A program made the position numbers and the translations under genes. Below the pieces are notes generated by a model. That model made no database searches. It was not told the origin of the DNA and saw nothing but the letters and a program-made list of their open reading frames with translations. Source: Verrucomicrobiaceae bacterium (GTDB lineage Bacteria > Verrucomicrobiota > Verrucomicrobiia > Verrucomicrobiales > Verrucomicrobiaceae). From it: a stretch of 64,000 nt of DNA. Below, piece by piece: positions 7,089-31,567 of this stretch (position 1 is its first letter; every line of letters begins with the position of its first letter). Location: contig JAEUHN010000051.1 in the NCBI GenBank assembly GCA_016795365.1, positions 1 through 64,000 of the forward strand. The letters run 5' to 3'.

Positions 7089-10000
7089 CTAGAGACCCTT
7101 CAGGTAGGCGACGATGTCGGCGATGCTTTGAGGCGTAAGGCCGAGCATGGAGGGCTCATACATGAGGGAGGTTTTCAGTTTGCTGCGGCTGGCGATGCGG
7201 CTCTTCGGAATGGTCTGCACCACGCCGCCCATGCACTTGATGATGAGGGGATCGCTGTCGGAGAGAACCATGCCGGTGATGACGAGGCCGTCTGTAGTTT
7301 TGATCTCGCTGCCTTCGTAGCCGTGGGAGATGGTGTGGCTGGGCTGGGCGATGGCTTGGATGAGAATGTCAGCCGTTTGTTGCCTGCCGTAGGTGGTTAA
7401 GTCAGGACCGAAGTCCACGCCTATGGCTCCGATGTGGTGGCAAGTATAACAGGTGGCGACGGCGGTGGCTCCACGTTTGGCATCGCCTTTCAGCTTGGCG
7501 ATCTCGGCGAGGTCGAGCTTGGGGGCATTGGCAGGAGGAGGTGGCATCGGCGAGGCGACGAGCTTCACTTTGTCGGGATCATAAATGCCGAGAGCCTTCA
7601 TGCTGCCGTCGATGTCATAGGTCTTCCAGGTGTTGCCTTTGCGATTCATGAGCCACCATTTGGCGAGGTCCGGCATGGGGAAGCCTTTGGCGTGGGCGAG
7701 TTCGAGCATGGCACCAGCGGCTTCGCGTCCTGGAGCGAAAGCGATAGCGGTGACCATAAGCTTGCGTTGCTCGGGAGTGAGCTTGTCATTGAGTGCACGG
7801 GCTTTGAAGTCGCTCACGGCTTCGGCAGGATGCAAGCGCCAGGCGATTTTTGCAAAGGCGTCATCCCAGGTCGGCTTTAAGGCGCCATAGACCTGCGCTT
7901 CCTTGCCCTCGCTACCGAGGCCGAAGGCTTCGAGGTAGGTGCGGTCCTTGCCATCGAACTGCTGGGCGATCTTGACGAGGATCGGCACGCTCTGTTCGGC
8001 GGGGACATCGCGAAGAGTCACAGCCACTTCACGACGCACGGCTGCATCGGAATCCGAAGTCATCTTCGCAGCCATGGCTAGCACTTCATGGTTAGCCCGG
8101 CGCAAGGCACGATAGGCGACGAGGCGTTTGGTTGCATCTTTGGACTCCAGCAAAGGCTTCACCTTGGCGATGCCTTCATCACCCATCTGAGCGAGTAACC
8201 ACGCAGCACGCGCAGCGATGAAGGAGTCGCTGTCTTCGAGCAAGGCAGCCACGGCAGGCACAGCATTGGCACCGGCGGCTTTCAAGCGGGTGAAGCCGCT
8301 GTTCCGCACGTTGATGGACGGGCTCTTGAGCGCGGCGATCTGACCTTCGATGGTGTCGAGCTTGAGCGCTGGCACTTGCGATTTGAAACCCTTCGGAGCG
8401 ATGCGGTAGATGGCTCCGGTGTAGCCATCATCACGTGTGCCGTGACCGCCAACACCGGGGTCAAACCAGTCGGCGACATAGATTGCGCCATCGGGTCCGA
8501 CACACACATCGCTGGGGCGGAACTTGGTCTTCAGCTCGCCCGTGGGACGACCGCCGAGGAAGTCGCTGCCCGCCCATTCCTTCTCTTTGTTGGAGGTCAG
8601 GAAGTCCATGCGCTCCAGCTTGAAGCCTGCGCCATCGGGCACGGGGAGATAACCGAAGACGACGTTCTTGCCCGCTTCGCAAGCGAGCAACAAGCCGCGC
8701 CATTTTTCGCCGAGCGCCCCATTTTCATAAAAGGCCACGCCGGTGGGTGAGCCGCCGCCATAAACATCGCCTGCGGGCATGGTACCGGGGTCTTCCTGAC
8801 GCCATTCGGCGGTTGGTGTGTCCTGACCGGGACGTTTATCTGCACCCCAACTCCGCTGTCCATCGGCGCTGGCGAACCCGGCATTGCCGCCTTCCAGCAC
8901 ATGGCTCACGCGGCAGGCGGGTGGATCGTCGTTGTCGCTCTGGAACAGGTCGCCGTAGCTGGTGAGCGTCTGCTCGTAGCTGTTGCGGTAATTGTGCCCG
9001 ATGATGTTCACGTTTGTGCCATCAGGATTCATGCGCACGCTGAAGCCACCGATCCACACATGGCCGTCGTCGCTTTTCTGTCCGGCGATGTCTTGCAGCA
9101 TGTAAGGGCTTCCCATGCGGAAGGTCGTGCCGCTGCGGTCGGTGAACTTCGCTCCGGTGTTGCCTTGATTGAAATACCACTGGCCATCGGGTCCAGCGAT
9201 GAGGCTGTGCAGACTGTGGTCGTGCTGACGACCATTGAAGCCCGTCAGCAAAACCTCGCGCTTGTCGGGAATGCGGTCGCCGTTGGTGTCGGTGTAAACC
9301 AGCAAATCCGGCGGCTGCGACACGACCACTTTGTCATCGAGCACGGCGACGCCGAGCGGTGCGGCGAGTTCCTTTTCCTGCACGAACACGCTGCTCTTGT
9401 CGGCTTTGCCATCGTGATCAGTGTCTTCGAGAATCACGATGCGATCTCCTTCAGGACGGCGTCCACCTTTACCGCGATAGTTCACGCCTTCCGCGACATA
9501 CATCCGGCCCTGCGCATCGAAGTCGATGTTCGTCGGATTGTAGAGCATCGGCGAGGCCGCCCAGACAGTGACTTCCAGACCTTCCGGCACACTGAACATC
9601 TCCGCAGGCACCAGAGGTGGGCCTGCATTCATATCGCCCTGCTGAAGCTTCGATGGCAGAGCGGTATAAATATGGAAACGCATTCCGGCATCACTCGGCT
9701 TGCCAGCGCGCTCCATGCCGCCGTCATCAATCGCCACCTTCGCGGTGAAGCGCTCCACGCCAGCGGGCAGATCATACGCGATGGTCGATGACGCATGAGT
9801 GCCGATGCCATTCTCATAGACCTTGCCCTCTACTTTGATTGGGCCACCGGCGTTGTTCTTGCCGATCTGTGTGCGGCCATAGCCACGCTCTTCGCCTTTC
9901 CATTTCAATGAGGTGACGTCGATGGTTTTGCCATCGGCCATGATGAGCTTCGGCTCAATCCAAGTCGCCCAGTCGCAGGAGATGCTGCCCTGATCGGAAG

Positions 10001-11036
10001 CGACGAGATACAGCTCCTTCGCGTTCTTGATCGCCACATCAATGTCGAGGATGCGCGGCTTCGGATTCTTCGCCGTCATCATCTGCGTTTCAAAGACAGG
10101 CTTGGCATTGCCCACCGGCATCGCACCCGCACCGCGAGCTTCGGCCATCATGGCGTCCAGTTCCGCTTGAGTCGGTGTCTTGGTTGCGATCCCATTGGCC
10201 GGAATCTCGAATCCAGCGGCCCAAGCGACGCCATTCAGCATCGTCGTGCGGAAGCTATCGTTCGTCATGTTGGCGAAGAAGTGGAAGCCCGTGAAGCCGA
10301 AGCCTCGCCCACCTTTCGGCCGGTCGAAGGCCCACGCGAGATGCTGCGGCTTGCCCGCTTTCACATCCGCCAGCACGTCCGGATTGCCGCCGTGCGGACT
10401 CGGCTTGTCGCCTTCTTTGAACTTCACCGTGTTCAGCGGCGCAATGGCGCTGAGCACCGGCGTCACGCCCTTCATCTCCGGCACGAAGCGCATGTGATAA
10501 TACCATTCATCCTTCGCCGAGAAGGCCTTCACGCCATTCGCCACCGGATGCTGGCCCGGCTGCACGCTCGCCTCCCACGTCGGGTTCACCGAGTAAAACG
10601 TCTCAAAGAAGCCGCCCATCCAGTCGAGGTAGTTTTTGCCTTGCGAGCCGATCTTCGCCTCCACTCCATAATGAATCGCCGCGAAGCCCGCCCCGCGATC
10701 ACAGGCCGCCTTGATGTTCGCATCGTCCGCCGCGCGGCCGCCATGATTTAGCAGCACGATGATCGCATCCGCCTTGCTGAGATCCTTCGGCCAGTTGTTC
10801 TCGGGATACACGACCGCAAAAGCCTGGGGATAGGCCTCATTGATACGCCGCGCCAAATACGAAGCTCCCGCGAAGAACTCATGCTGACCGCCGCCTCCAT
10901 GGTTGCCTTTGGCTGCGATGAACACGAGCCGCTTCGTGCCAGCAGGCACGTTGTTCTGACCGGTGTAATCGAAGATGTCACGCGGCTGAGCGAAGGCAGC
11001 CGTGGTGAGCAAGGCGAGAGCGAGGAGGAATTTCAT
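7089..11036 (-). CDS. ThuA-NPCBM-PVC dehydrogenase-HEAT-cytochrome c fusion protein
   Basis: A 1315-residue secreted multidomain protein. After a signal peptide come: a ThuA-like domain (about 20-275); an NPCBM-type carbohydrate-binding region (about 315-470, with YENGIGTHASSTIAYDLPAG); a PVC membrane-bound-dehydrogenase beta-propeller (about 480-870, with NPTNIDFDAQGRMYVAEGVNY and VGPDGAIYVADWFDPGVGGHG); HEAT-like repeats (about 890-1080); and a C-terminal haem domain with CYTCHHIG (near 1195) and the family ending SIADIVAYLKGL. In PVC bacteria such proteins are thought to oxidise sugars or alcohols in the periplasm with electrons passing to the haem; this has little biochemical proof. Fusion of ThuA and NPCBM points to a carbohydrate substrate. 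Confidence 0.88.
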   Translation of the reverse strand: MKFLLALALLTTAAFAQPRDIFDYTGQNNVPAGTKRLVFIAAKGNHGGGGQHEFFAGASYLARRINEAYPQAFAVVYPENNWPKDLSKADAIIVLLNHGGRAADDANIKAACDRGAGFAAIHYGVEAKIGSQGKNYLDWMGGFFETFYSVNPTWEASVQPGQHPVANGVKAFSAKDEWYYHMRFVPEMKGVTPVLSAIAPLNTVKFKEGDKPSPHGGNPDVLADVKAGKPQHLAWAFDRPKGGRGFGFTGFHFFANMTNDSFRTTMLNGVAWAAGFEIPANGIATKTPTQAELDAMMAEARGAGAMPVGNAKPVFETQMMTAKNPKPRILDIDVAIKNAKELYLVASDQGSISCDWATWIEPKLIMADGKTIDVTSLKWKGEERGYGRTQIGKNNAGGPIKVEGKVYENGIGTHASSTIAYDLPAGVERFTAKVAIDDGGMERAGKPSDAGMRFHIYTALPSKLQQGDMNAGPPLVPAEMFSVPEGLEVTVWAASPMLYNPTNIDFDAQGRMYVAEGVNYRGKGGRRPEGDRIVILEDTDHDGKADKSSVFVQEKELAAPLGVAVLDDKVVVSQPPDLLVYTDTNGDRIPDKREVLLTGFNGRQHDHSLHSLIAGPDGQWYFNQGNTGAKFTDRSGTTFRMGSPYMLQDIAGQKSDDGHVWIGGFSVRMNPDGTNVNIIGHNYRNSYEQTLTSYGDLFQSDNDDPPACRVSHVLEGGNAGFASADGQRSWGADKRPGQDTPTAEWRQEDPGTMPAGDVYGGGSPTGVAFYENGALGEKWRGLLLACEAGKNVVFGYLPVPDGAGFKLERMDFLTSNKEKEWAGSDFLGGRPTGELKTKFRPSDVCVGPDGAIYVADWFDPGVGGHGTRDDGYTGAIYRIAPKGFKSQVPALKLDTIEGQIAALKSPSINVRNSGFTRLKAAGANAVPAVAALLEDSDSFIAARAAWLLAQMGDEGIAKVKPLLESKDATKRLVAYRALRRANHEVLAMAAKMTSDSDAAVRREVAVTLRDVPAEQSVPILVKIAQQFDGKDRTYLEAFGLGSEGKEAQVYGALKPTWDDAFAKIAWRLHPAEAVSDFKARALNDKLTPEQRKLMVTAIAFAPGREAAGAMLELAHAKGFPMPDLAKWWLMNRKGNTWKTYDIDGSMKALGIYDPDKVKLVASPMPPPPANAPKLDLAEIAKLKGDAKRGATAVATCYTCHHIGAIGVDFGPDLTTYGRQQTADILIQAIAQPSHTISHGYEGSEIKTTDGLVITGMVLSDSDPLIIKCMGGVVQTIPKSRIASRSKLKTSLMYEPSMLGLTPQSIADIVAYLKGL

Positions 11037-11223
11037 GCGTGAGGAAACAGGGGCGTATCAATACCGCAGCAAAAGTCGGGATTGGACAACTAATTGATGC
11101 GAAAACCAGAAGGCCCAATGTGCATCGATGTGCCATTGCGCGGACTGATCATGTGAGGCTCGTTCGCCAGAGTTCCTGCTTTGAGGGAGGAGCATTAGAC
11201 ATTGCAGAGGCAGAGCATTATGG

Positions 11224-12504
11224 ATGCCTCACATGACGATTCGGATCTTGCTCATTCTCTTCATCACCTCATGGCTCAGCGCCGACACGCCAGAAGCCGC
11301 TGTTGAAAGAGCCCATCGAGAGATATGGCAACGGTTCGTGGACGAACATAACCTCATCCTCGACTACGTAGGCCTCAAAGGTGAGATCGTGCGACCAAGG
11401 CCAGAGGATTGCCGGGAGATGAAACCGAGCGCACTGAGCTGGGGCGTGCCCAACGAGGATGGCCCAATGTTCAACGGTCTCTACCTCGATGCGTTATGCT
11501 CGCACTGGCGGATCACACGCGGCGATGATGTTCGCACCAAGGCCCGCCGCATGATCGAGGGACTGATCAAGGTGTCCACCATCGGCAGGACGCCCGGCTT
11601 CATCGCTCGCGGACTCGCCACGGACGGCAAGACAACCTACCCCATGGGCTCGAACGATCAGACAACGCCATGGCTCTATGGCATCTGGCGATATGTGACC
11701 GATGGCCTGTCCAAGAACGACACGGAACAGCAAGACCTCATAAAACGCTTTATCGAGCAGGTGAAGGTGCTCGAAAGCCACGCGTGGAAGGTGCCTACGG
11801 ATGGCCCGCCATCGAAGTATCGCGGTGACTTTGCCAAACCGACCTGGGAAGCTGTGCCGAGGCTGCTTTTCATCATGAAAGCCATGCACGCCTTCACTGG
11901 CGACGCGTCGTGGCACCAGCGCTACCTCGCCGCTGCTCATGAACAGGTTGGCAAAGGCCAACGCACGCGTTTGGAAGTCTGTCGCATCGGCATGGTATTC
12001 GATCCGGGTCAGGGCGAGCGCCACTCATGGACTGGCAGCGAGTGTGTCATCTGCCTGCGCGGCCTCTGGGAGATGGAGACAGATCCCGCTTTGAAAAGCG
12101 TGTATGCCGAGGGCTTGCGTCACAGCGCCGAGGTAGCTGCGCAAAGCTTGCCCCTCATTGATAAGTTCGACGTGAACGGCGCGGAGCCTTTCAACGTGGA
12201 CTGGCGCGTGATGAACGCCGCTTGGAAGCCACAACATAGCGAAGCGGAAGCCGTCGAGGTGGCCTTGGCGGGTCTGAAGCTCCAGCACGCTGCCTCACCG
12301 CGCATGACCATCGAGAAAGATTACCTTCGCGAGCCGTGCTTCGCCGCGTGGGTTATCACGCTGTGCCCAGATCGCGACTTTGCGATGTCCAATCGTGTCG
12401 CCATCGAAAAGGTCATCACTCACTATGATTTCAGCCGCGTGTATTTGAGCCAGTTCTTCCCCATCGAGTCCGCATGGTGGCGGATGCAGGAACTCGCGAA
12501 GTGA
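11224..12504 (+). CDS. Secreted protein, possible six-hairpin (alpha/alpha)6 glycosidase-like
   Basis: 426 residues with a signal peptide (MPHMTIRILLILFITSWLSA; the second ATG at 11233 may be the true start). The body is mainly helical with repeated Trp/Gly motifs such as DGPMFNGLYLDALC, GSNDQTTPWLYGIW and GERHSWTGSECVICLRGLWEM, a pattern reminiscent of six-hairpin toroid glycosidases. No catalytic residues can be assigned. It is the first plus-strand gene after a long minus-strand run, transcribed divergently from the 1315-residue protein across 187 bp, and converges with the next gene with a 9-bp gap. Export is clear, fold tentative, function unknown. Confidence 0.7.
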   Translation: MPHMTIRILLILFITSWLSADTPEAAVERAHREIWQRFVDEHNLILDYVGLKGEIVRPRPEDCREMKPSALSWGVPNEDGPMFNGLYLDALCSHWRITRGDDVRTKARRMIEGLIKVSTIGRTPGFIARGLATDGKTTYPMGSNDQTTPWLYGIWRYVTDGLSKNDTEQQDLIKRFIEQVKVLESHAWKVPTDGPPSKYRGDFAKPTWEAVPRLLFIMKAMHAFTGDASWHQRYLAAAHEQVGKGQRTRLEVCRIGMVFDPGQGERHSWTGSECVICLRGLWEMETDPALKSVYAEGLRHSAEVAAQSLPLIDKFDVNGAEPFNVDWRVMNAAWKPQHSEAEAVEVALAGLKLQHAASPRMTIEKDYLREPCFAAWVITLCPDRDFAMSNRVAIEKVITHYDFSRVYLSQFFPIESAWWRMQELAK

Positions 12505-12513
12505 ATCGTCGAT

Positions 12514-13176
12514 TCAAGGTGTGGTCGCAACCACCCGGATGTCATCAAGCTCGATACCGGCTTCGCCGCCGTTTTGCATCCACAGGATTTTGCGCTTCGC
12601 AGCGTTGAAGTTGGGCCGTGTGAGGTTCTTCGACCATGTCTGGCCATCCACGGTAATGATCACTTCTTCGCTGCGGAAGACGAGTTTCACCTCGTGCCAC
12701 GTGTTGGCGGTCAGATCGACTTTTTCGAGCGGAAGGTTCTCGTTCAGCCGGTGAGCGCCGCTCTTCTTGTCGGGTGGGCGGTTCTTTTGCAGCAGCGGAT
12801 GACTGGGGTCCTTCGAATGCGCATCGACCTCGAGTTGAATGCCCTCGCGCAACAGTTTGACGCGCAGCATGTGATCCTCGCTGCCGAAACCATCGTCGCC
12901 ATCGACGAAGAACCATAACCAGCCGCCCTGCGCGAGATGGCGATAGCGAAAGGAGATCGTGAGGTCCTTTCCTTCGACCGGCAGATAGACCATCGGCGGA
13001 TATTTGCCGCCGCTGGAGCCATGGGTCCACAGCACGCCATCGCGCACGCTGGTGTTCTTGTTCGGGATCGGCGTCAGGAAGCGCTTTGCATCAAAGTCGG
13101 TGCCGAAGGTTTCATGAATCGGCTCGGAAGCGTGGCTGATCGAGGCAACGAAAAGGGTGAATAGAAGTGCGCGCAT
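12514..13176 (-). CDS. Secreted concanavalin A-like (DUF1080-type) protein
   Basis: The ATG at 13176 gives 220 residues beginning with a signal peptide (MRALLFTLFVASISHASEP); the longer frame would start at a TTG. The rest is beta-rich and resembles LamG/DUF1080 jelly-roll modules: DGVLWTHGSSGGKYPPMVYL, TISFRYRHLAQGGWLWFFVDGDDGFG, ANTWHEVKLVFRSEEVIITVDGQTW and the closing GIELDDIRVV. DUF1080 domains bind or hydrolyse saccharides (some are 3-keto-disaccharide hydrolases). Length suits a single domain. Family assignment is by pattern only. Confidence 0.7.
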   Translation of the reverse strand: MRALLFTLFVASISHASEPIHETFGTDFDAKRFLTPIPNKNTSVRDGVLWTHGSSGGKYPPMVYLPVEGKDLTISFRYRHLAQGGWLWFFVDGDDGFGSEDHMLRVKLLREGIQLEVDAHSKDPSHPLLQKNRPPDKKSGAHRLNENLPLEKVDLTANTWHEVKLVFRSEEVIITVDGQTWSKNLTRPNFNAAKRKILWMQNGGEAGIELDDIRVVATTP

Positions 13177-13227
13177 CTGATATAAACGCACGATCGACAA
13201 GAATGTGGTCAGCGAAGAAGAGCCAAG

Positions 13228-14238
13228 TTAATCAACCAACGAGTTCCGATAGTGTCCCAGGTTCGTGTAGCCGTCGTTCTGCGTGGCGTTGTGGTCGGTG
13301 GGATCGTTCGCGTTGAGGAAGCTGGTCGTCACGTTCTGCGCCTCGGCATTCGGTGCGATGGGGAAGAAGTCGCGATTGAAGTCGGTGTTCGGTCCCGGAC
13401 CCCGTAGTTGGCGACGAGGTTGAAGCGACCGGTGGCGAGGTTGCGTGTGCCTTCCCTGTTGTAGGCGTGTGCCTTCCCTGTTGTAGATGACGTTGTTGCG
13501 GAAATCGAAGATCGAGTCCGCATCGCTCTCCGGCGGTAGGTGGCCGCCGAGAGTCGGATGGCGGTCACGGCTGCTGATGAGCATGTTGTGATGGATGCGG
13601 ATGTTGCCCCTGATCTTGCGGAAGGACATCAGCATCGCATGCGGCTGCTTTTTGTAATGCGTGCTGTCTTTGAGCGCCTCGCCGCAGAGGCACTAATGCA
13701 TCGTGAAACGATCCGCTGCACGCACGTCCATGATGCCATCGATTATCCACGTTGCCGTCACATGATCGAGGATGACATCCGTGCAGCCGACCTTCTCCGG
13801 TCCGAAGCCGATCATATCCTCCGAAGTCTTTGTTTCATCGCCAAGACGAAAGCGCATGAAGCGCACGACGACATCCGAGCACTTGTTGAACTGAATACCA
13901 TGATCCCGAACGGCGATCCCGCCGCCCGGAGCCGCCTATCCGGCCAACGTGAGCCCTTTCACGCCCTCAATGCGCAGTTCCTTCTTCAGCACGATCGTGC
14001 TGCCGACATCAAACACCACCGTGCGCGGCACTTTGGCCTTTTTCGTGTTGATCGCATCCCGCAGGCTGCCCTCGCCGCTGTCGTCGAGATTCGTGACGTG
14101 ATACACATCGCCACCGCGTCCACTCTTGGCGAAGCGACCATAACCTTCCGCACCCGGAAAGACGATCTGCGGCTCGGCCGCATTGGCGGTGGCCGCTGCA
14201 AGGGCGATGATAGCGACGAAAGATTTCACGGCAGACAT
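13228..14238 (-). pseudogene. Broken PL1 pectate lyase
   Basis: From ATG 14238 (MSAVKSFVAIIALAAATANA, a signal peptide) the frame reads FPGAEGYGRFAKSGRGGDVYHVTNLDDSGEG, the start of secreted PL1-type pectate lyases. It meets an in-frame TAG at 13936-13938 (LTLAG*AAPGGG, where a Gln is usual) and another at 13693-13695 (FTMH*CLCGEAL, where a Trp is usual). The same frame continues through HYKKQPHAMLMSF and SSRDRHPTLGG. A 22-bp tandem duplication (13442-13485) then shifts the frame, a second indel restores it, and the central part is missing before a normal-looking C-terminus (NDPTDHNATQNDGYTNL). It lies 8 bp after the PL10 gene, so it was once in the same operon. Confidence 0.88.
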
Positions 14239-14246
14239 TAGGCGGG

Positions 14247-15776
14247 CTATTTGGCCTTCGTGATGCGCTTTTGCCACCGCGTCACTTCTTTACCAATCAC
14301 GTCGCGTGCTTTGGTGGTGAGAAAGTCATAAGCAACTTTGTTCTTCGCCGCCATTTCGGTAAAGGTGCTGTATAGGATGCCATCGTCGGAGCCAGGGAAG
14401 ATGGCTTTGCCCGTGGTGACATCGTAGAACCTCGCCCAATACACCTCGCTGGAGCCAGCATCGGCCACGTAGTCGGTTTTGCCTTTCTCGTTCGTGGTCT
14501 TGCGCAAGCCAGTGATGCGATGGGCATCCAGCCAGGCAACCCCGGCCTCGATAGCAGTTTTGACTTCGGCAGTGAGTGGCCCGCTGCGCATCAGAAACTT
14601 CAGCAGTTCGGCACTTTCACCGCCGCTGAGCGAAGGCGGTTCTTTGCTGCGGGCGTGAGCTGGCGCGAGGGTCAATGGCTCGTGCTGAGCACCCCAGACA
14701 GTGAGCTTGCCATCCACATTGACCTGCATGGCAAGGATGCAGGCGATGCCTTTATCAAGTGCAGCCTGCGCTCGCTGACGCAAGGCATCATCGACAAAGG
14801 CAAAAGCAGGCTTCTCCGAACTGATGGCAGAGAGCACCTCCAGAACATGCACCATGGCGTTGTCGTTGAGTGTGATCGCTTCGTGATAGCCGGACTCCAC
14901 CGGGTAGTTCTGCGGCCAGCCACCGTTGGGATACTGCGCCTCCAGCAGATACTCGATGCCACGGATGGCACCTCCCTTGGCATCCTCGCGTTTCATCGCC
15001 GTGGCGACACCCGCGAGCAGCTTGATCTGCTCGGTCGTGCAGCGGTTGTCTATCGTCCCGCAGTAGTGCCAGGCGTCTCCCTTTTGCGAAGTCCAATGTG
15101 TGCCGGGCTCACGTGGGCCCGAGGAGTAGTCCACGGCCTTTGACCATCCTCCGCTGGGTGTTTGATAGCTCAGAACGGCATCCGCAGTTTTGATCGCCTC
15201 TGCGCTGGAGAACCATTCCAGGGGAATGTCGCTATCGAGTTCGAGTTCTGCGCGATTGCCAGGAGCGGGGCGGGCTTGTGCCAGCGAGAGCTTCCGGCAT
15301 TCCGATGCGAGGATTTCATATTCACGCTCGGAACGCTCCAGAGACCGCTTCATGTAAGCCTGCCATGCAGTTCGTTCCACTTCGGGCAGTGCCTCAATCC
15401 TCTCGGGCTTCAACCACTCAAAGTCATGGCTCACCTTTGAGTGCGTCTCCTTTCGCACCAGTTCTACAGTGCCGTTCAATGCCCGCACTTGCAGCTCCGA
15501 CCACCGGGCAGTCTCCAGTTTCACATCAAAGGCATAAGCACCGTCATCGTCCGGTTTGCCGTTCACTGGCAACCATGGGCTGTCATCGACGATCGCACCG
15601 GCAGCCACAAAACGATACTCCAGCGCCGTCGTCTCACGTGGAGCCGTGGCTTTGACATGTATCGCCACAAAGTCAGTCGTGGTGTTAAGCTTGATGGAGG
15701 GCTTAGGCTTGTCTTGGGCGGCGGCTGGCAGAACGCCGAGCATAAGAGCGAGAACGAAAGGTCTGAGAACGATCAT
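14247..15776 (-). CDS. Pectate lyase, polysaccharide lyase family 10
   Basis: 509 residues, exported (signal peptide ~1-20). The N-terminal 180 residues are beta-rich and include a helical segment ending in LARPAPG; the PL10 catalytic domain follows: SYQTPSGGWSKAVDY, GTIDNRCTTEQIKLLA, YPNGGWPQNYP, NDNAMVHVLEVL, VWGAQHEPLTLAPAHARSKEPPSLSG and SSEVYWARFYDVTTGKAIF. PL10 enzymes cleave polygalacturonate by beta-elimination; the DNRCTT and RSKEPP blocks are hallmark active-site regions. The ATG start at 15776 lies 105 bp from the divergent XylR-like regulator gene, which probably controls it. The PL1 gene that follows in the same operon is broken, so this is the only intact pectate lyase seen here. 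Confidence 0.93.
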   Translation of the reverse strand: MIVLRPFVLALMLGVLPAAAQDKPKPSIKLNTTTDFVAIHVKATAPRETTALEYRFVAAGAIVDDSPWLPVNGKPDDDGAYAFDVKLETARWSELQVRALNGTVELVRKETHSKVSHDFEWLKPERIEALPEVERTAWQAYMKRSLERSEREYEILASECRKLSLAQARPAPGNRAELELDSDIPLEWFSSAEAIKTADAVLSYQTPSGGWSKAVDYSSGPREPGTHWTSQKGDAWHYCGTIDNRCTTEQIKLLAGVATAMKREDAKGGAIRGIEYLLEAQYPNGGWPQNYPVESGYHEAITLNDNAMVHVLEVLSAISSEKPAFAFVDDALRQRAQAALDKGIACILAMQVNVDGKLTVWGAQHEPLTLAPAHARSKEPPSLSGGESAELLKFLMRSGPLTAEVKTAIEAGVAWLDAHRITGLRKTTNEKGKTDYVADAGSSEVYWARFYDVTTGKAIFPGSDDGILYSTFTEMAAKNKVAYDFLTTKARDVIGKEVTRWQKRITKAK

Positions 15777-15881
15777 GATACTTCATACCATCCGGGGACG
15801 AGTGTCCTCAATGCAAGATTCGGCACTTGTGGTTCAAAATACTGCAATCACCACCTGAAGGAGCTGCGTTCACCTTCCAGC

Positions 15882-17036
15882 ATGAGAAAGAAGCATCGAC
15901 ATGTGCTCGTGGCCCTCGGCTGGTATGATCACCGGCTGCTTCAGGGCATTGCCAGCTATGCCACGCAGCATTCGTGGCACATCGCAGCGCATAGCATCAT
16001 CCATGAGAAGACCATTCCCTGGGGATGGCAGGGAGATGGCGTGCTGGCCTGGCTGGCCGCCGATGATGAGCTGGCACAGTTCGTCCTCTCAGTGAAAAGG
16101 CCCACCGTGGATTTTTCTTTGCGGAGAGCCGAGTTGCCCTTCGCGCATGTGGTGCAAGATCATGCGCACACCGGCCGGCTGGTGGCCGATCATTTCCTTG
16201 AGCGCGGGATGCCAAACTTTGCCTTCTACTCCGATTCGACGAACTGGTCCCAAACCGAGCGCGGCAATTCATTTGAGCATCACCTGGGTCTTCGCGGCCG
16301 TGCCTGCCAGACATGGCGATGGAGTGACTCTTGCCCGCGTGGCTTCAAAAAACAGATCTGGTCTGCCCGGCGCCGCTGGCTCATGCAACGGCTCAAATCC
16401 GCACCGAAGCCGCTCGCTCTCTTTGCCGCAAACGGCAGTCTCGCAGTCGAGGCGCATGAACTTTGCGCGGATGCGCAGATCGGTGTGCCACATGAGGTCG
16501 CGATTGTTGGCATTGACGATTACCTGCTTTCCGTGGGCGCGCATAGCACGCACATCTCGGGCGTGGATACTCGTCTCGAAGAGCAGGGCTATCGCGGAGC
16601 CGAACTGCTGGACCGTATGATGCGCACGGGTCGAACGCCCATGCGTCCCTTGCGTATCCAGCCATCCCATGTCGTCACCCGCAAGAGCAGCGACGTGCTC
16701 GCCGTGCCTCATGAAGGTGTGTGCAAAGCGCTGCGCTTCATCCTGGCTCACTTTGCCGATCCCATCGTCATCCGCGACATCGCCGCAGCCGCCGGCATGT
16801 CCGAGCGCAGCCTGCATCTGGCCTTCACCACCCATCTCAGCATCACGCCCGGGATGAAGCTGATCGAAACTCGGCTTGAGAATGCATGTCGGCTGCTATC
16901 GACATCGGACGAGAAAATCGAGCACATCGCCAGCCACTGCGGCTACCCGAGCTTGAACGCCTTCTTCATCGCCTTCAAAAAGAGCACGGGACACACTCCG
17001 GCGGAGTTTCGACGGGGACAGAAGCTAGGAAGATAG
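15882..17036 (+). CDS. XylR-like AraC-family transcriptional regulator
   Basis: The ATG at 15882 gives 384 residues; frames starting further upstream run into the divergent lyase gene. Residues about 5-270 are a periplasmic-binding-protein-like sensor (HVLVALGWYDHRLLQGIASYA, PFAHVVQDHAHTGRLVADHFLERGMPNFAFYSD, VAIVGIDDYLLSVG), as in E. coli XylR. The last ~100 residues hold two HTH motifs of the AraC type: DIAAAAGMSERSLHLAFTTH and EHIASHCGYPSLNAFFIAFKKSTGHTPAEFRR. Such proteins activate sugar-catabolism genes on binding a pentose or related sugar. Its divergent placement makes the PL10/PL1 operon the obvious target. The operator itself was not identified. Confidence 0.9.
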   Translation: MRKKHRHVLVALGWYDHRLLQGIASYATQHSWHIAAHSIIHEKTIPWGWQGDGVLAWLAADDELAQFVLSVKRPTVDFSLRRAELPFAHVVQDHAHTGRLVADHFLERGMPNFAFYSDSTNWSQTERGNSFEHHLGLRGRACQTWRWSDSCPRGFKKQIWSARRRWLMQRLKSAPKPLALFAANGSLAVEAHELCADAQIGVPHEVAIVGIDDYLLSVGAHSTHISGVDTRLEEQGYRGAELLDRMMRTGRTPMRPLRIQPSHVVTRKSSDVLAVPHEGVCKALRFILAHFADPIVIRDIAAAAGMSERSLHLAFTTHLSITPGMKLIETRLENACRLLSTSDEKIEHIASHCGYPSLNAFFIAFKKSTGHTPAEFRRGQKLGR

Positions 17037-23712: not shown

Positions 23713-25236
23713 TCACTTCTTGGCCGCTGGTGCCGCGATCTCCGAGACGACAACCGATGTGTCGGGTGCCTTGCCGGAGTAAAACGAGACGAAGTGCGTG
23801 TCGCCGATCACGGTGGCGTTCGCATTGCCCGCATCAAAGGTGACCTTGCTGCCAGTGGCGACGGCTTCGGAGCCGGGCCAGCTCAGCGGATGGTCAAAAA
23901 CGCGATTTGGATCGACGACTCGACGCCGGAGAAGGCCGCGACCGCGTTCATAGTAGTAGTTGCTCAGCAGCCCGGTTTTGGCGTCGAGGATCAGGCTCGG
24001 TGTGGAGGCAGCGACATCGCTGATGTTGGTGCGAGTGCGCTTCCAAGTGGTGCCGTTGTCCGTCGAGACGATCTGGAATTGCGCAGGCCCGGTCTCGGTC
24101 CGCGCGATGGCGAGGATCTTGCCATCGCCGAGGTAAACGGCGGCGGGTTCGGTCGGCCAGTCGGGTTTGAGCAAGCCGGTTTCGACCGGGGTTTGCGTCC
24201 ACGTTTTGCCATCGTCGATGCTCGTCATCGTGCCCCAGGATTGCGTGGGCTTGTCGCTGTAATCGCCGCCGAACCACAGGGCCATCAGGCCGACCTTCGG
24301 CACGCTGAAGACATCGGTGATCTGCATCGGGCGCACGGCGAGCGTTGGCGTGGCGATAAGCGTGAAGGTGACGCCATCGGTGCTGCGGTAGAGATCGTGA
24401 TGCCACTCGCCTTTTCCAATGCGGCGCACCCAGAGCAGCATCGCGCCGGTGGCACCGAGCCCTTTCCCGACCGCGACCTCGCCGAAGTCCTTCGCGTCGG
24501 CGACCACGGTTTCGGCGGTCCAAGTTTTGCCACCGTCGGTCGATGTGCGAGCATACACAGCGCGATCATCGCTGGCGATGGTGTGCCCTTTGCCGCGGCC
24601 ATAAACGCACACGAGTTTCCCGCCGATGGCCTGAAGCATCGGCCACGAATTGTAGCCGGGCACGTCTTGCACCACGTGGGGCTTCGGGAGGGCTCGCAAA
24701 GGCGTCACTTTCACCGCGGCTAGGCCCGTGGGCTTGATGAACGTGTCGCCAGGATCACCGGGTTCCCGCTGGATGCGCACGGTGAGCGGCGCATCGGGCA
24801 CGACTTCGTAACAGGACTCTAAAACAATGGTGCGCGAGTGAAACGGCGCAGAGGGCAACGCGGTGCGCACCGTTTTGCCGAGCGCATACCGCTCCGTGAA
24901 CGGCGCACCGTCCACCATCTGCGAAAGATGCACGCGATACACATCCGTAAACTCCGGGCTCGTCGTCTCATCCGTCGTCGTCACGACAATCTCGACCTTC
25001 ACCGCCGCGCAATCGCCCCGCAGCCCCGTCACCACGCCCGCCACCGATTGTCCCACCGTCCCACCCGACAACGACCACACCGGGACATGGGTGGAGCCAC
25101 TCGACATCAGCACCAACGAAGGCTGCCCCGTGGCGATGGACATCTGGTTGGCATTCAGGCCGATGGGGGGCGGCTCGGCGCTGAAGCTGCTGATGGAAAA
25201 GACGAGCAGCGCGAGGCAGGAAGGTTGAGTTCGCAT
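23713..25236 (-). CDS. Exported Asp-box (sialidase-fold) protein with N-terminal beta domain
   Basis: ATG 25236 gives 507 residues starting with a signal peptide (MRTQPSCLALLVFSISSFSA); the longer frame adds 21 unlikely residues. An Ig-like region (about 20-180) precedes a propeller with Asp-box motifs STDGGKTW, STDGVTFT, SIDDGKTW and STDNGTTW. It resembles BNR-repeat putative glycosidases of planctomycetes and verrucomicrobia. No catalytic triad can be assigned. The gene starts 12 bp before the esterase gene in the same direction, so they form an operon. Upstream is the insertion scar and the STAND gene. Confidence 0.8.
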   Translation of the reverse strand: MRTQPSCLALLVFSISSFSAEPPPIGLNANQMSIATGQPSLVLMSSGSTHVPVWSLSGGTVGQSVAGVVTGLRGDCAAVKVEIVVTTTDETTSPEFTDVYRVHLSQMVDGAPFTERYALGKTVRTALPSAPFHSRTIVLESCYEVVPDAPLTVRIQREPGDPGDTFIKPTGLAAVKVTPLRALPKPHVVQDVPGYNSWPMLQAIGGKLVCVYGRGKGHTIASDDRAVYARTSTDGGKTWTAETVVADAKDFGEVAVGKGLGATGAMLLWVRRIGKGEWHHDLYRSTDGVTFTLIATPTLAVRPMQITDVFSVPKVGLMALWFGGDYSDKPTQSWGTMTSIDDGKTWTQTPVETGLLKPDWPTEPAAVYLGDGKILAIARTETGPAQFQIVSTDNGTTWKRTRTNISDVAASTPSLILDAKTGLLSNYYYERGRGLLRRRVVDPNRVFDHPLSWPGSEAVATGSKVTFDAGNANATVIGDTHFVSFYSGKAPDTSVVVSEIAAPAAKK

Positions 25237-25403
25237 GTATGATCCAGATTGGCCCAGCACGGAGACCACCTCAAGCACCGCGAGAACCCATATTGGCATG
25301 TTTCAGTCTGTGCGTGAGCGCTTTCGTTCGCGGCGAGCCGAACTAGTCCAATAAAGTCGCCATCACATGGATTGAATGGCAGAAAAGACGCCTGTCGCGC
25401 TGC

Positions 25404-25512
25404 GACTCCTACGCCACCCACACAAACCCCGGCGCGGGGCCTTTCCAGGGCGGGACTTCGTTGGCTGGGAGGCTGTGGTTGGCACAGAGGCCAAGTTGGT
25501 CGATCTCGGACC
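25404..25512 (-). pseudogene. 3'-terminal remnant of a paralogous esterase gene
   Basis: On the minus strand these ~109 bp encode WSEIDQLGLCANHSLPANEV and then PPWKGPAPGFVWVA before a TAG. This matches the last ~36 residues of the protein at 29708-31567 (SWSEIDQLGLCANHGLPANEV...), with about 87% nucleotide identity by eye. The match stops sharply at about 25512, where the upstream flank of the STAND gene begins. It is therefore the tail of a former second copy of that esterase, left on the far side of the inserted gene. No start or catalytic part remains. Confidence 0.85.
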
Positions 25513-25573
25513 AAAAAGGACTGTTCAATAGGCGACAGGCGCTAAGATACAGCAACCTCTCGCCCGTTCATCC

Positions 25574-28500
25574 ATGCCATCTGCACATCCACAACCGATC
25601 CTTGGAGATCCAAGCCGTCAGGCGCATGGGGCCATCGCCGGATTCGATTACCAGTTGTGGCAGACACTGCTGACGTGGATTCGACTCAAGGACACCGAGC
25701 TATTGTATGTGGAAGGAGCTGAGGACTTTGATGTGGTTAGCGAAGGCGAAGCGCATGCCACACAAGTTAAGGCAGGTGGAACTGCGCTTTCTTTGGCTTC
25801 GCAGCGTGCCGCAAAAGCACTGAATGACTATTGGGATCTGGTGGAAAGGAACCCTGATCGCCAAGTTGGTTACTCGTTTGTCTCGCAGGCAGGCATCGCA
25901 TGCGAAAGGGCCAGACTCACAGCTGACGAGGAGCCTTTGATTCGAGTATGGAACCGAGGAGCGCATTCGCAGACGGATATTGATGCAATTATTGAGCAGC
26001 TTTGCGCAAACGAGAGCTGCGCTCCTTCTTTGGCTGCCTTTCTGCGAACGGCTTCGGAGGCAGATATTCGGAAAAAGCTGATCCATCGTGTTACTTGGCG
26101 GATGACCAGTCAGGACGCCGATGGCTGCAAACGAATGGTTGAAGAAGCCTTGGCGCTACTTGGTGAAGGCTATGGTGTATGGCCTCATGATGCGACAAAA
26201 GCTGCGGCGACGCTTTATCAGCATGTGATGCTCGCAGCAAAGAACACGGGTGCAGCTCCGCTATCCAGGGCGTCGCTCCTCAACGCTTTCCAGGAAGCAT
26301 CGTGCAGAGTTGTGCCAAACGCACAGTTCAACGCGATTCGCGGCAAAGCATACGGCCCTAGCTCATTGGGAAGCGATGGAGGTCCACAGAGTGACTTTCG
26401 AGAAAGCTCCCGTCTTTGGAGGCGCGGTCCACCGCCCTCAAGAACGGTTCTGGCTCAACGAGAGTCGCTGGTCTCTGACTATCTTGGTAAACTGCAAAAG
26501 CATTCTGTGTTCTTTATGCATGGCTCAACGGGGATGGGAAAGACCACGATGGCCAACTTACTGGTGCGAAAGTCGGGAGGCGACTGGGCCTGGTGGTCTG
26601 CGCGAGGGATGTCCCCCAGCGAAACACGCATCGCACTGCACCAGCTCCGTGTGGCACTCCTCGACTTCGATTCACCAAGCGGAATCGTTTTGGACGATCT
26701 GGACACATCATCAGTCTCAGTTCGTGGATTCGAGACAGAACTCTGTGATCTGATACTTGAGGCAGCTAGGCTGAGATTATTGGTCGTCGTGACCTGTCAA
26801 AAGCCTCCACCCAGCATCCTCACAGCCCAACTGGGAGAAGATGCTTTAGTGGTTGAGTGCGGCCCATTCAGCGAGGGTGATGTGCTCGAAACCGCAAATG
26901 CACTCGGATGCACCGATGTCGGGAAGCTTGGCAACTTGGCCATGATATTGATTGGCTCCACACGCGGACATCCTCAGCTCGTTCATGCAAAGCTCATGGC
27001 ATTGAAGCACGAGTCATGGAATGACCTGAGTTTGCAACGCTTGCTAATGCTTGGTGCTAGTCCAGGTGACCCTGAGAAAGAGGCTTCGGCCTTGATTGCA
27101 GCGTTGCCTGATTCACAACGCACACTGCTCTGGCGACTGAGTGTTGTGCATTGTCCGTTCACACGGGCTCATGCTCTGCGCCTAGCAGAACTACCACCTC
27201 CTGCGACAGAGCCTGGTATGCATTTTGACAGTCTTTGTGGGCCTTGGATTGAGTCCTTACATGATGGCTATTTCCGAGTCTCTCCGCTTCTGGAGCAGGC
27301 CGGAAGCCAAGTGTTGTCGCCTAAAGACCTGCGGCGCCTGCACCATTCTATCTCTGTGGCTCTGTGGCAAAGAAACTTGAGGGACTTCGAGGCGACAGCA
27401 GCGTTTCGCCATGCTTGGATCGCCAAGGACCAGCAAGGACTTCTGACCATCTGCGCCGGGCTGTCTTTCCAGAAGCCTGAGAATCTAAAGCTGCTCGCAT
27501 GGGGAATGAGCTGGTTCGTATCGGAGGCTCTTCAACCCAAAGATTTGTTATTTGAGCTGAATTCATTCGTGAGCATCACGCTTCGAGTTCTTCAGTTCCG
27601 GGTCGCTAGTGAGATAGCGCCGGGGATAGCCAGTAAGGCTTTTGAGCGCTTGGAGTATGAGTTGGAACAGCTTCCAGATGGTGGATCGCAGAAGGACCTG
27701 GCAGATGAATTAAAGACAAACCTCAAAGGTGTGGTTGCGGCACTTCCTTGGATTACACCATCTGTCACTGTTGGCCCACATGTAATGCTTCGTTGTCTCT
27801 CCAAACTCAAGGAGTGCGAGCAAGATGGGGTTTTTGATTTCGAGCAGAATAGAGTGCTCAGGGCAATGAAACCCGTTGAAGCCATTCGACAGATGGTGCC
27901 GATGACCATGCAGTGGTGCAAGGGCATTGATGACCTCGCTGCGTGGGTTGCCGCGCTAGACGAAGCTGATACAGTATCCAGAACCCTATGGATCGAAGTG
28001 ATGTCTTCTCAGACTCAGGCGCTTCATGGAATGGTCGAAAAGGCTTGGCTTGCGGAGACTGAAAACGAACATCCTGACTGGCAGCGAGCCATTGAGGTGT
28101 TGAAGCGCTTAGATCAGCTCGGCGAACGCCACCAAGCTCTCGCGCTTCGAGTCGCTTCAGCCTCAAGCCAAGCCATGGTGTATTTTGATTACATGGGCGA
28201 TCCTGACAAAGCTTTTGCGGTTCTGTCTCAGCCACATCTGGTCAACGACCTGAATCCCTTTGTCCTTGATCGGCTTGGACGGCTGGACGCTGCTCAGGGG
28301 CGGCATGAGCGAGCCATCGAGACGCTTGAACGCGCAATGGTCTCGATGGGTAATAATGATCCGCTCACTGCATCGCGGAAGGCTTTCATGGCCGTTCAAG
28401 CCGCACATTCGGCCGGGAAACTCGGCAGACTTCTCGAAGCAAAGCGCCATCTCGAACTTGCTGCCGATCTGTTTAAGAGCAGTGGCTTGTTGGATGCCTT

Positions 28501-29611
28501 GGTCGGAGTCCATGCGGATCTTGGTTTCGTGAACTATGAGCTTGGCGACTATCAGGTAGCGATTAGTCAATGGACAGCGTGTCTGACGCTCATTCAGATG
28601 AGGCTACCTGAAACCAAAGAGCTTCAAGCGTTTGCTACTCGAAAGGCTGCTGGACACATCATAGCATGGGTCTCGGGTGAAGTTTCGCATCCCAGTAACG
28701 GCAATCTATTCAAGCCGTCTGTAGCTTTCGCGACGAGCGTCAGTCCCAAGACCGAAATTACAAAACTGCAAGAGAGTGATTGGGAAGGACTTTGGATACA
28801 ATTGATCATTATCGGCCTGGAACTCGGGGTTCCTGTCGAGTTTGCGGACTCTCTAATGCCCCGGCTTCTGGAGCATCCGAATCCCGGTTTTCGCTCATTG
28901 GCTTGGATCGCAGAGGTAAATCGTCGGCTTGAATCTGGTAAGACGGAGGGCCTCCCAGAGTTTCTTCAACGCGGCTTGGGTTGCTTCGCTGACTTTCGGC
29001 AAGAGCAAGTGGGGCAACTACCAATCGAGGCATTCGACGGTAGTCACGATGCTTTTGGATATGCCCCTTACTTGGTGGCGATTCTTCGATCACTGGCACT
29101 GAATCATCAGACGGAGGTGATGCTAGCTCACTGGCGAGACAGTGCTGCACGAACTTCATGGTCTGCTGGTCTAGCGTCTTGGTTCGATGACATTGAGTTC
29201 ATTCTCCATTCCGATCCGAGAGAACTATACTCCGAGATCCAAGCCGGAGAACCTCCTTGGTGGCGACGTGCGATAATCGCTGCTCGCTGCTGTCGAGCTG
29301 ACGACCTGCTTCCTTTCCAGTATGCGACAGCTTGCTACCAACTCACAATCGCTTACGCAGGCCAATCGATCTGGCGACGTAGGGCGCGAAAAGGCGTCAT
29401 TGAGTTGCTCTCGCTAACGGCTCGTAGAATTATCAGGGTGGCCTTCAGGCTGCACAATCCGCGCATAACCCTCCCTCGTCTCGAAGAGACGTTGAATAGT
29501 CATAGTAAGGGGTTCAAGAAAGCAGGAGAGATCGTTCTTGCTCTGTTGGATGTTTGTGGCTCCGCCGTGCCGAGTCAGATGATCGAACAATTGCGCGGAC
29601 TCGATGAGTGA
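25574..29611 (+). CDS. Cap4/DUF4297-like nuclease-STAND ATPase-TPR protein (candidate antiphage Avs-like)
   Basis: 1345 residues, no export signal. Residues ~19-240 match the Cap4/DUF4297 dsDNA-nuclease family: GAIAGFDYQLWQTLL (19-33), Glu47, GAEDFDVV (48-55) and ATQVKAG (62-68), giving an E...D...QxK site. Residues ~300-480 are a P-loop STAND module: MHGSTGMGKTTMANLL (Walker A, ~312) and GIVLDDLD (Walker B, ~370), then a winged-helix region (LLWRLSVVHCPFTRAHAL). The remainder is helical, with TPR-like pairs at ~850-1010 (DRLGRLDAAQGRHERAIETL; VHADLGFVNYELGDYQVAI). This order equals that of antiviral Avs proteins, in which a C-terminal sensor binds a phage protein and triggers the N-terminal nuclease. 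Its base composition is lower in GC than its neighbours. Alternative: another signal-transduction STAND ATPase. Confidence 0.85.
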   Translation: MPSAHPQPILGDPSRQAHGAIAGFDYQLWQTLLTWIRLKDTELLYVEGAEDFDVVSEGEAHATQVKAGGTALSLASQRAAKALNDYWDLVERNPDRQVGYSFVSQAGIACERARLTADEEPLIRVWNRGAHSQTDIDAIIEQLCANESCAPSLAAFLRTASEADIRKKLIHRVTWRMTSQDADGCKRMVEEALALLGEGYGVWPHDATKAAATLYQHVMLAAKNTGAAPLSRASLLNAFQEASCRVVPNAQFNAIRGKAYGPSSLGSDGGPQSDFRESSRLWRRGPPPSRTVLAQRESLVSDYLGKLQKHSVFFMHGSTGMGKTTMANLLVRKSGGDWAWWSARGMSPSETRIALHQLRVALLDFDSPSGIVLDDLDTSSVSVRGFETELCDLILEAARLRLLVVVTCQKPPPSILTAQLGEDALVVECGPFSEGDVLETANALGCTDVGKLGNLAMILIGSTRGHPQLVHAKLMALKHESWNDLSLQRLLMLGASPGDPEKEASALIAALPDSQRTLLWRLSVVHCPFTRAHALRLAELPPPATEPGMHFDSLCGPWIESLHDGYFRVSPLLEQAGSQVLSPKDLRRLHHSISVALWQRNLRDFEATAAFRHAWIAKDQQGLLTICAGLSFQKPENLKLLAWGMSWFVSEALQPKDLLFELNSFVSITLRVLQFRVASEIAPGIASKAFERLEYELEQLPDGGSQKDLADELKTNLKGVVAALPWITPSVTVGPHVMLRCLSKLKECEQDGVFDFEQNRVLRAMKPVEAIRQMVPMTMQWCKGIDDLAAWVAALDEADTVSRTLWIEVMSSQTQALHGMVEKAWLAETENEHPDWQRAIEVLKRLDQLGERHQALALRVASASSQAMVYFDYMGDPDKAFAVLSQPHLVNDLNPFVLDRLGRLDAAQGRHERAIETLERAMVSMGNNDPLTASRKAFMAVQAAHSAGKLGRLLEAKRHLELAADLFKSSGLLDALVGVHADLGFVNYELGDYQVAISQWTACLTLIQMRLPETKELQAFATRKAAGHIIAWVSGEVSHPSNGNLFKPSVAFATSVSPKTEITKLQESDWEGLWIQLIIIGLELGVPVEFADSLMPRLLEHPNPGFRSLAWIAEVNRRLESGKTEGLPEFLQRGLGCFADFRQEQVGQLPIEAFDGSHDAFGYAPYLVAILRSLALNHQTEVMLAHWRDSAARTSWSAGLASWFDDIEFILHSDPRELYSEIQAGEPPWWRRAIIAARCCRADDLLPFQYATACYQLTIAYAGQSIWRRRARKGVIELLSLTARRIIRVAFRLHNPRITLPRLEETLNSHSKGFKKAGEIVLALLDVCGSAVPSQMIEQLRGLDE

Positions 29612-29707
29612 AAAAGAGACTATAAGCCGCTAGGATGAGCAAACTGTGGGCTTTGCCTTGGAGCGCTTTGGCTTTAGAGCATGCGCAGGATCATCTTGGA
29701 TGGCGAT

Positions 29708-31567
29708 TCACTCCCACGCCACCCGCAAAAACTCCGGCGCGGGGCCTTTCCAGAGTGGGACTTCGTTGGCGGGGAGGCCGTGGTTGGCGCAGAGGCCGAG
29801 TTGATCGATCTCAGACCAGCTTGTCGGTGAGCCTTGATCGGAGGTGAAGTCGCTCAGAGCGAGCGTGAGGGTTTGTGGAGCATCGGAGCCCTTGATCTCG
29901 CGCTGGCAGACGAAGGTGCGGCGCGGGCCGCGGTAGCTGCGCCATTCGTTTTGCTGGAGGACGATGCTGAGGCGGTTGGTCCGCGGGAGTTTGAGCGTGA
30001 GGGCGAGTTTGGAGCCATCAGGGCCGCGCCAGAGCGGATCGGTGACTTTGCGCGTCCAGAGCTGCTGATGGGTGGCGTTTCCCGCGTTGAGCATATACCA
30101 GTCGCGAGTGCCGTGGGTGAAGTCGTCGATGAGCGTGGACGGTTTCGCGGTGAGTTTGGGGTTCGCTTGCTTCACCTCGGCGGCGCTGTGCGAGTGGAGG
30201 AGGCTGCTGAGGCAAACTTCGGTGATCGGTTTGGCGTTGCCGGGCATCTGCGCGAGCGATTCGGGCTTCGGAAGCGTGTAATAAACGTTCGCGAAGGCGA
30301 AGAGTGGCAGGTCGTGCGTTTGGATGGGCAAGTGGGCGATGTAGCCTTCGGATTCGTGATGCACCTCGGCGCTGCGCCAGAAGCGGGCACGCGGATCGGG
30401 GTCGATGCTGTAGTAAATCTCCACGCGGGCCACGGGCAGCGATTTCGCATCCGGCCGCACGCGCAGCATGGGCACGTCGTCGTTCGACTTGAGGCGAAGC
30501 TCGCTCTGCGGCGTCTCGGGCAAGGCGGGACCGCCTTTGAGATGCTGATCAAACCACAGCGGCATCGTGATGGCGACCTCAGGGATCGTGCGATGATTCA
30601 GATGCGGCGACCAACTGTAGCGCGTGGGTTGCTTCGCGATGAGCGCGTTCGTGCGATACACATCGTCCATCCAGCCGTGGAAGTCGTTCGTGGCGCTGCG
30701 ATGCAACACCGGGCACTGGATGAGCGGCGCATAGCTTTCAAAGCTCAGCGTGTGCTTGAAGACCTCGACATCGCCTTTGATCCGGTCCTGCTGGTCCGTC
30801 CCGCCGATGAACGCATGCTCCTGCCAGCGCCAGCCCTGACCGCCGACGCCGGGAACAGCGGCCTTCACCCGGCGATCCGTGCCTGCGACATACATCGTGA
30901 GATTGCCGCCCATGGAGTAGCCATGCACACCGAGCCGCTGCGGATCGACCTGCGGCTGCTGTTCGAGAAACGTGAGCCCGCGACGGCAACCCAGCGTGAG
31001 CAGATACCAGTTGTTGTTCTTCGGATGCTCGCGGTCCTCGAAGACTTGCTTCGGACCGGGCAGCATCGTGCTGTAGCCCTGCACGTTGAGCTGCGAGGGA
31101 TCCACCGCACCCCAGTCGGTGTTTGGATCGCCGGGCTCGGACTTCTCGCAGGTGTTGAACGGCGCCTTGCCCGTGCCGCTGCCGCCCCAGTTTACCGACA
31201 GCGCCGCGTAACCACGCGCCACGAGCAGCTTCACCTCGCTCACCGAGCCGCGCTGGCCTCCGCCATGGATGTGCATCACGGCGGGCAGCTTTTCCTTCAT
31301 GCCCTCGGGAAAGCCATAGATCGCAGCCATGCGAGCCGGCTTGCCTTTAAACGTGCCGATGAAATACCGCACATGACGAAACACGCTGCTGTCTTCCTTC
31401 CACTCGCGAATCACCTCGACTTCCAGCGGGTCCTTTCGCGGATCAAAATCCGCCCATAACTCCACCACCGACTGCGGCACGCCCTCGGCGGCAAAGAGCG
31501 AGTTCAGATCCAAAAGGGAAAGCGAAGCGACAGCTCCAGTTTGAAGAAGGGTGCGGCGGTTGGTCAT
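29708..31567 (-). CDS. Tat-type exported acetyl-xylan-esterase-like alpha/beta hydrolase with C-terminal beta domain
   Basis: 619 residues. The start MTNRRTLLQTGAVASLSLL is a likely twin-arginine signal. Residues ~60-360 are an alpha/beta hydrolase of the AXE1/dienelactone type: VMHIHGGGQRGS (oxyanion region), LSVNWGGSGTGK, GVHGYSMGGNLTMYVAGTD (catalytic Ser), and HLNHRTIPEVAI (candidate His). The last ~160 residues are a beta-rich module (RDWYMLNAGNATHQQLW; SEIDQLGLCANHGLPANEVP). It would remove acyl groups from polysaccharides. Its start overlaps the stop of the next esterase gene by 4 bp. A truncated copy of its 3' end is found at 25404-25512. Confidence 0.85.
   Translation of the reverse strand: MTNRRTLLQTGAVASLSLLDLNSLFAAEGVPQSVVELWADFDPRKDPLEVEVIREWKEDSSVFRHVRYFIGTFKGKPARMAAIYGFPEGMKEKLPAVMHIHGGGQRGSVSEVKLLVARGYAALSVNWGGSGTGKAPFNTCEKSEPGDPNTDWGAVDPSQLNVQGYSTMLPGPKQVFEDREHPKNNNWYLLTLGCRRGLTFLEQQPQVDPQRLGVHGYSMGGNLTMYVAGTDRRVKAAVPGVGGQGWRWQEHAFIGGTDQQDRIKGDVEVFKHTLSFESYAPLIQCPVLHRSATNDFHGWMDDVYRTNALIAKQPTRYSWSPHLNHRTIPEVAITMPLWFDQHLKGGPALPETPQSELRLKSNDDVPMLRVRPDAKSLPVARVEIYYSIDPDPRARFWRSAEVHHESEGYIAHLPIQTHDLPLFAFANVYYTLPKPESLAQMPGNAKPITEVCLSSLLHSHSAAEVKQANPKLTAKPSTLIDDFTHGTRDWYMLNAGNATHQQLWTRKVTDPLWRGPDGSKLALTLKLPRTNRLSIVLQQNEWRSYRGPRRTFVCQREIKGSDAPQTLTLALSDFTSDQGSPTSWSEIDQLGLCANHGLPANEVPLWKGPAPEFLRVAWE

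Follow-up and report, generated by a model that had tools for sequence, protein, structure and literature searches.

Does a long gene lying alone among the sugar-degradation genes of a Verrucomicrobiaceae bacterium encode an antiviral receptor, and how did it come to be there? The gene occupies positions 25574-29611 (+ strand) of the 64,000-nucleotide stretch of DNA analysed here (the window), and its neighbours code for sialidase-like BNR proteins, esterases and a GH99-like protein, in line with the sugar-degradation setting that the first-pass annotation had described. That annotation had proposed an Avs-like fusion of a Cap4/DUF4297-like nuclease, a STAND ATPase and a TPR-rich C-terminus. 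Comparison with related genes and genomes indicates that the gene is real, intact and horizontally acquired, and its product is, with good probability, a stand-alone antiviral STAND receptor.

Domain architecture and conservation of the protein

The open reading frame starts with ATG and remains intact over 1345 codons. Scanning profile libraries with the single protein gave matches that are individually weak and mutually consistent along the chain: PADLOC DUF4297 (1.1e-5) and LmuA (1.3e-5) and NCBIfam DUF4297_antiphage (4.6e-6) at the N-terminus, nSTAND3 (0.0047) in the middle, and TPR_2 (6.7e-7, with a second match at 1.2e-6) near residues 896-998. The Pfam family PF14130 (Cap4_nuclease) matched 14 of 52 members of the family (best 3.3e-5), whereas the window protein itself gave no match at E 1. 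Scans of the window protein and of seven relatives turned up no Pfam, NCBIfam or PADLOC model that spans the whole protein. Because the architecture is conserved over its full length in more than 60 relatives, this is no chance reading frame.

To each of these three parts a fold could be assigned by comparing AlphaFold models with the PDB, and on these models the three-part architecture holds. Residues 1-610 were modelled with a pLDDT of 86.3 and a pTM of 0.85. The nuclease fold was looked for in this model and is present: residues 18-247 (25625-26314, + strand; model m111e0581839c) match the DUF4297 domain of HerA-DUF (9c1m_G, Z 16.9), LmuA (9nxx_D, Z 15.9) and Cap4 (6vm6_A, Z 13.3), and Avs3 was matched as well. 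In addition, a profile of this domain found 8xav, a DUF4297 protein of solved structure (2.8e-5), and aligned the PD-(D/E)xK nuclease residues E47, D51, Q64 and K66 with it; these residues, Q64-V-K66 included, and the GFDYQ motif (residues 23-27) lie exactly where the first-pass annotation had placed them. A search of PDB sequences with a 610-residue profile was set aside, swamped as it was by Cdc48/p97 AAA ATPases.

The second part, residues 283-605 (26420-27388, + strand), is predicted from the model comparison to be a STAND NTPase with helical and winged-helix domains. Residues 283-610 align with Apaf-1 (Z 22.2, 305 residues aligned, rmsd 4.0), with the STAND-TPR protein 6mfv (Z 21.9) and with chain C of a maltose-system regulator structure, 8bob (Z 21.6). 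The Walker A motif, GSTGMGKT, had been correctly recognised and slightly misplaced (around residues 312-320); it lies at residues 317-324 (26522-26545, + strand). Walker B, expected near residue 370, is the IVLDD of residues 371-375 (26684-26698, + strand), and residues 465-469, GHPQL (26966-26980, + strand), form what we take to be the GxP motif of NB-ARC/STAND proteins. Model and motifs together contain features of the STAND NTPase superfamily, namely P-loop, Walker B, GxP motif and winged helix. The chain Avs3 8dgc_A aligns across model residues 19-492, that is, over both domains in the same order (Z 14.8), with an rmsd of 16.9 A over the pair because the two domains are placed differently.

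Residues 606-1345 (27389-29608, + strand) make up the putative sensor. The model of residues 585-1345 (mb27d24a63cbc, pLDDT 81.7) is an all-helical superhelix, and TPR_12 (4.8e-8) and TPR_2 (9.6e-8) match this region. The C-terminus, which had been described as unlike anything recognisable, has a familiar form, a TPR/helical superhelix common to the whole family. Its fold search returned generic TPR proteins only (Z about 13-15), and such matches carry no information on the ligand.

Residue conservation was counted over 67 full-length members. All of them have E47 and D51; Q64 is present in 64 (glutamate in the other 3) and K66 in 58 (arginine in 9; lysine in the window protein). Walker A G322 and K323 are likewise invariant, as are E111, W126, G465 and W558, while Walker B D375 is found in 66 members and P467 in 65. 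Conservation is highest in the first 175 residues, which fall in the nuclease, and in parts of the STAND core, and a TPR stretch at about 926-1060 is also well kept. Mean column entropy rises to 2.65-3.06 bits over residues 1101-1275, compared with 1.35-1.98 over the first 175 residues. This longest highly variable stretch of the sensor (residues ~1101-1275; 28874-29398, + strand) is a candidate recognition surface; a sensor would be expected to pair a conserved scaffold with a variable distal part. A pattern search from an 11-row alignment was dropped, its rows being too diverse.

Relatives and relation to known defence systems

A profile built from four relatives detected 78 loci in reference genomes, of which 54 encode full-length proteins (1300-1380 aa) with 19-24% identity to the window protein. 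The relatives belong mainly to Pseudomonadota and also to Gemmatimonadota, Acidobacteriota, Nitrospinota, Binatota and KSB1 bins. Within the phylum of the window a profile search found a relative in 3 of 388 genomes, and within its order a single-protein search, which is less sensitive, found the gene in 1 of 289 genomes and in none of the 288 others. With a single copy here and such counts among relatives, the gene is distributed as accessory genes are and is not the conserved single-copy housekeeping gene that had been named as the alternative. By tblastn, relatives turned up in 16 plasmid records; most of these are rhizobial or burkholderial, and one match covers residues 9-1083. No relatives were found in phages by tblastn. 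Single-protein scans of genome contigs and viral contigs yielded no relatives, and a profile of closer relatives matched in genomes and not in viral contigs. In a FastTree phylogeny the window protein sits on a long branch (1.59). An assignment of the donor was abandoned: the tree groups the window protein with other long branches at a join that the program flagged as doubtful.

Eight further loci (L073, at 9980-16360, L075, L081, L083, L084, L085, L087 and L093) encode proteins of 1250-2127 aa that begin with this nuclease domain too (E 1e-67 to 1e-99). Neither the STAND core nor the C-terminus of the window type was matched in these eight proteins, even at E 10, and no Pfam family matches the 2127-aa protein at 0.001. 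The nuclease module is found joined to C-termini of other, unrelated kinds.

How does this family relate to the defence systems that have been named? Avs3 (SeAvs3, PDB 8dgc, AVAST type 3) has the same order of Cap4-like nuclease, STAND NTPase and helical-repeat sensor. The Avs3a model, however, spans 2083 positions compared with about 1345 aa in the window family, and the likeness is seen in the nuclease and STAND parts. The NCBIfam Avs3a model gave nothing at the window gene, its sole match in the genome lying elsewhere (E 0.44). Avs2 (AVAST type 2, NF041813, 1317 positions) is similar in length and has a STAND-type P-loop core; its model did not match at the window gene, and a profile comparison with Avs2 relatives aligned 98 columns around the P-loop but not the N- and C-terminal parts. 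Among 388 genomes of the phylum, 8 carry relatives of Avs2 themselves (L129-L136), most of which score under the model cut-off. Avs5 shares the STAND core and the repeat sensor, whereas its effector is a SIR2 NADase (PMC12931631) in place of the Cap4-type nuclease of the window protein, and its model (NF041814) matched nothing at the window gene and once elsewhere in the genome (E 0.11). For Avs1 and Avs4 there was no match at E 1 among NCBIfam and PADLOC models, whichever Avs1/Avs4 models those libraries contain. PADLOC 'mad8' matches, which cover the ATPase region only, were rejected. By these profile comparisons, the label 'Avs-like' fits the construction of the protein and does not extend to membership of Avs2, Avs3a or Avs5.

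The nuclease fold is also shared with Lamassu LmuA and CBASS Cap4, from which the window protein differs in its fused STAND-TPR module. LmuA acts with an SMC-like partner, and Cap4 with a cyclic-nucleotide-binding domain. The closest structural match, the DUF4297 domain of the DUF4297-HerA complex, has its catalytic residues aligned with those of the window protein, and in the known complex it is encoded by one of two genes, the other encoding the HerA ATPase. HerA-linked DUF4297 is a double-stranded DNA nuclease that needs this catalytic motif and whose dimer resembles the Avs3 nuclease dimer; mutation of the motif in DUF4297-HerA lowers double-stranded DNA cleavage, and phage defence is lost altogether when the nuclease site is mutated (PMC11291478). 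A title and abstract search of the DUF4297 literature found no nuclease-STAND-TPR architecture. The kind of protein is already known; the family is best read, on the profile evidence, as an unnamed AVAST-like one, where unnamed means absent from the libraries and openly readable papers searched.

Insertion beside an esterase gene

The composition of the gene sets it apart from its surroundings. Its GC content is 53.5% compared with 60.5% in the rest of the window, as the first-pass annotation had noticed, and its GC3 is 52.5% compared with 71-80% in four neighbours. In a genome of the same family (G097, locus L104) the BNR and esterase genes are adjacent and the site is empty. Window positions 23929-25513 and 29708-31495 align to positions 1-1608 and 1498-3285 of that locus, with overlapping ends, and this alignment therefore delimits an insert of 4196 bp (25514-29709, GC 53.4%). 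The comparison shows that an insertion beside the esterase gene brought in 4.2 kb of DNA of low GC content, hardly longer than the nuclease-STAND-TPR gene itself. The insert has room for the nuclease-STAND-TPR gene only and so brings no integrase.

The insert is flanked by direct repeats of 109 bp that are 89% identical. The right copy (29710-29818) is the working 3' end of an acetyl-xylan-esterase-like gene with an AXE1 domain (29708-31567, - strand) and is 90-95% identical to the esterase ends of relatives. The left copy (25405-25513), a drifted copy of that 3' end, is 85-90% identical to them; its lower identity is as expected if the left copy were free to drift. Recombination between the two copies could excise the gene.

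The same BNR-esterase junction is occupied by other genes in two further genomes. One (G083, L145, 3303-5996) carries there an Eco57I/TaqI-like methylase gene and a second reading frame without a Pfam match, and the other (G154, L142, 299-2389) a PIN-domain gene, a SUFU-domain gene and other reading frames. The idea that every insertion at the junction came about in one way was dropped: neither of these two genomes has the duplicated 109-bp repeat. From these comparisons, the junction is a small insertion hotspot within the Verrucomicrobiaceae.

Elsewhere, one homologue (G492) adjoins an hsdR gene and has a RES-domain gene nearby, and homologues on plasmids have CBASS cyclase, SIR2, HEPN and toxin-antitoxin genes close by; PADLOC matches also occur among the genomic neighbours. 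No recurrent partner gene was found in about 50 loci, where the few repeated neighbours, an ABC-type protein, resolvases, integrases and a CoiA-like protein, each occur in 4-5. On a Rhizobium etli plasmid (L002, 4982-9939) a DUF4145 gene and the start of the homologue share 4 bp, and in that lineage the two genes may form an operon.

Proposed function and competing explanations

In the mechanism that we propose, the TPR superhelix would bind a protein that an invading phage, or another mobile element, produces. The STAND module would then bind ATP and open, allowing the receptor to oligomerise, which would pair the N-terminal Cap4/DUF4297 nuclease domains, and the paired domains would cut double-stranded DNA, killing the phage and probably the host too. 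We consider this antiviral receptor, taken as a whole, the probable reading. The models support it through the nuclease fold with its active-site residues, the STAND fold and the TPR sensor, and the genomic comparisons do so through patchy spread, plasmid carriage, defence-gene and recombinase neighbours, the empty site, the hotspot and the modularity of the nuclease. What counts against it in the sequences is the low identity to relatives (only 19-24%) and the replacement of K66 by arginine in 9 of 67 members.

The same machine might instead be directed at another enemy, that is, at plasmids, integrative elements, gene-transfer agents or host damage and not at phage proteins. The relatives on large plasmids and near recombinases would fit this, and the sequence names no trigger; against it, Avs1-4, the nuclease-STAND proteins that have been studied best, respond to phage packaging proteins, and terminase, portal or Ksap1 are what they sense (PMC12931631); we regard it as unlikely while giving it the most weight among the alternatives. 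That the gene has decayed or become inactive since its acquisition is improbable: the long branch, the low identity to all relatives and the drifted left repeat would suit such a history, but the frame is intact and E47, D51, Q64, K66 and both Walker motifs are all kept.

The sugar-degrading neighbours, together with a STAND core resembling that of a maltose-system regulator, bring to mind a MalT-type STAND protein acting in signalling or transcription on the surrounding polysaccharide-degradation genes. We give this very little credence, since a nuclease domain stands in place of a DNA-binding output, the gene is missing from relatives that keep these sugar genes, and its composition is foreign. 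Equally slight is the chance that the protein works as part of a system of several genes, for instance Lamassu or DUF4297-HerA, whose nucleases are the closest to its own; no partner recurs in about 50 loci, the insert is one gene, the STAND core is fused instead, and no HerA gene was present among the scanned neighbours, which comprise sugar-degradation and other metabolic genes.

Beyond the antiviral receptor itself, we entertain a bolder proposal only tentatively: that these proteins form a distinct, unnamed family of immune receptors encoded by one gene each and present in several bacterial phyla, that their conserved TPR sensor sees a phage protein not known as the trigger of an Avs system, and that the nuclease is an exchangeable module which other large proteins of uncharacterised function also carry. 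The earlier statement that the trigger would be new went too far in this respect, as the sequence cannot tell.

If active, the protein would add to the known systems a widespread AVAST-like family for which the libraries searched have no full-length model, and one compact enough to be tested as a single gene. With over 60 relatives that combine a conserved core with a variable sensor stretch, it would be directly testable what phage protein these receptors detect and through which surface. The insertion site offers a clean example of one-gene acquisition at a small hotspot, and the family may reveal yet another means of virus recognition in bacteria.
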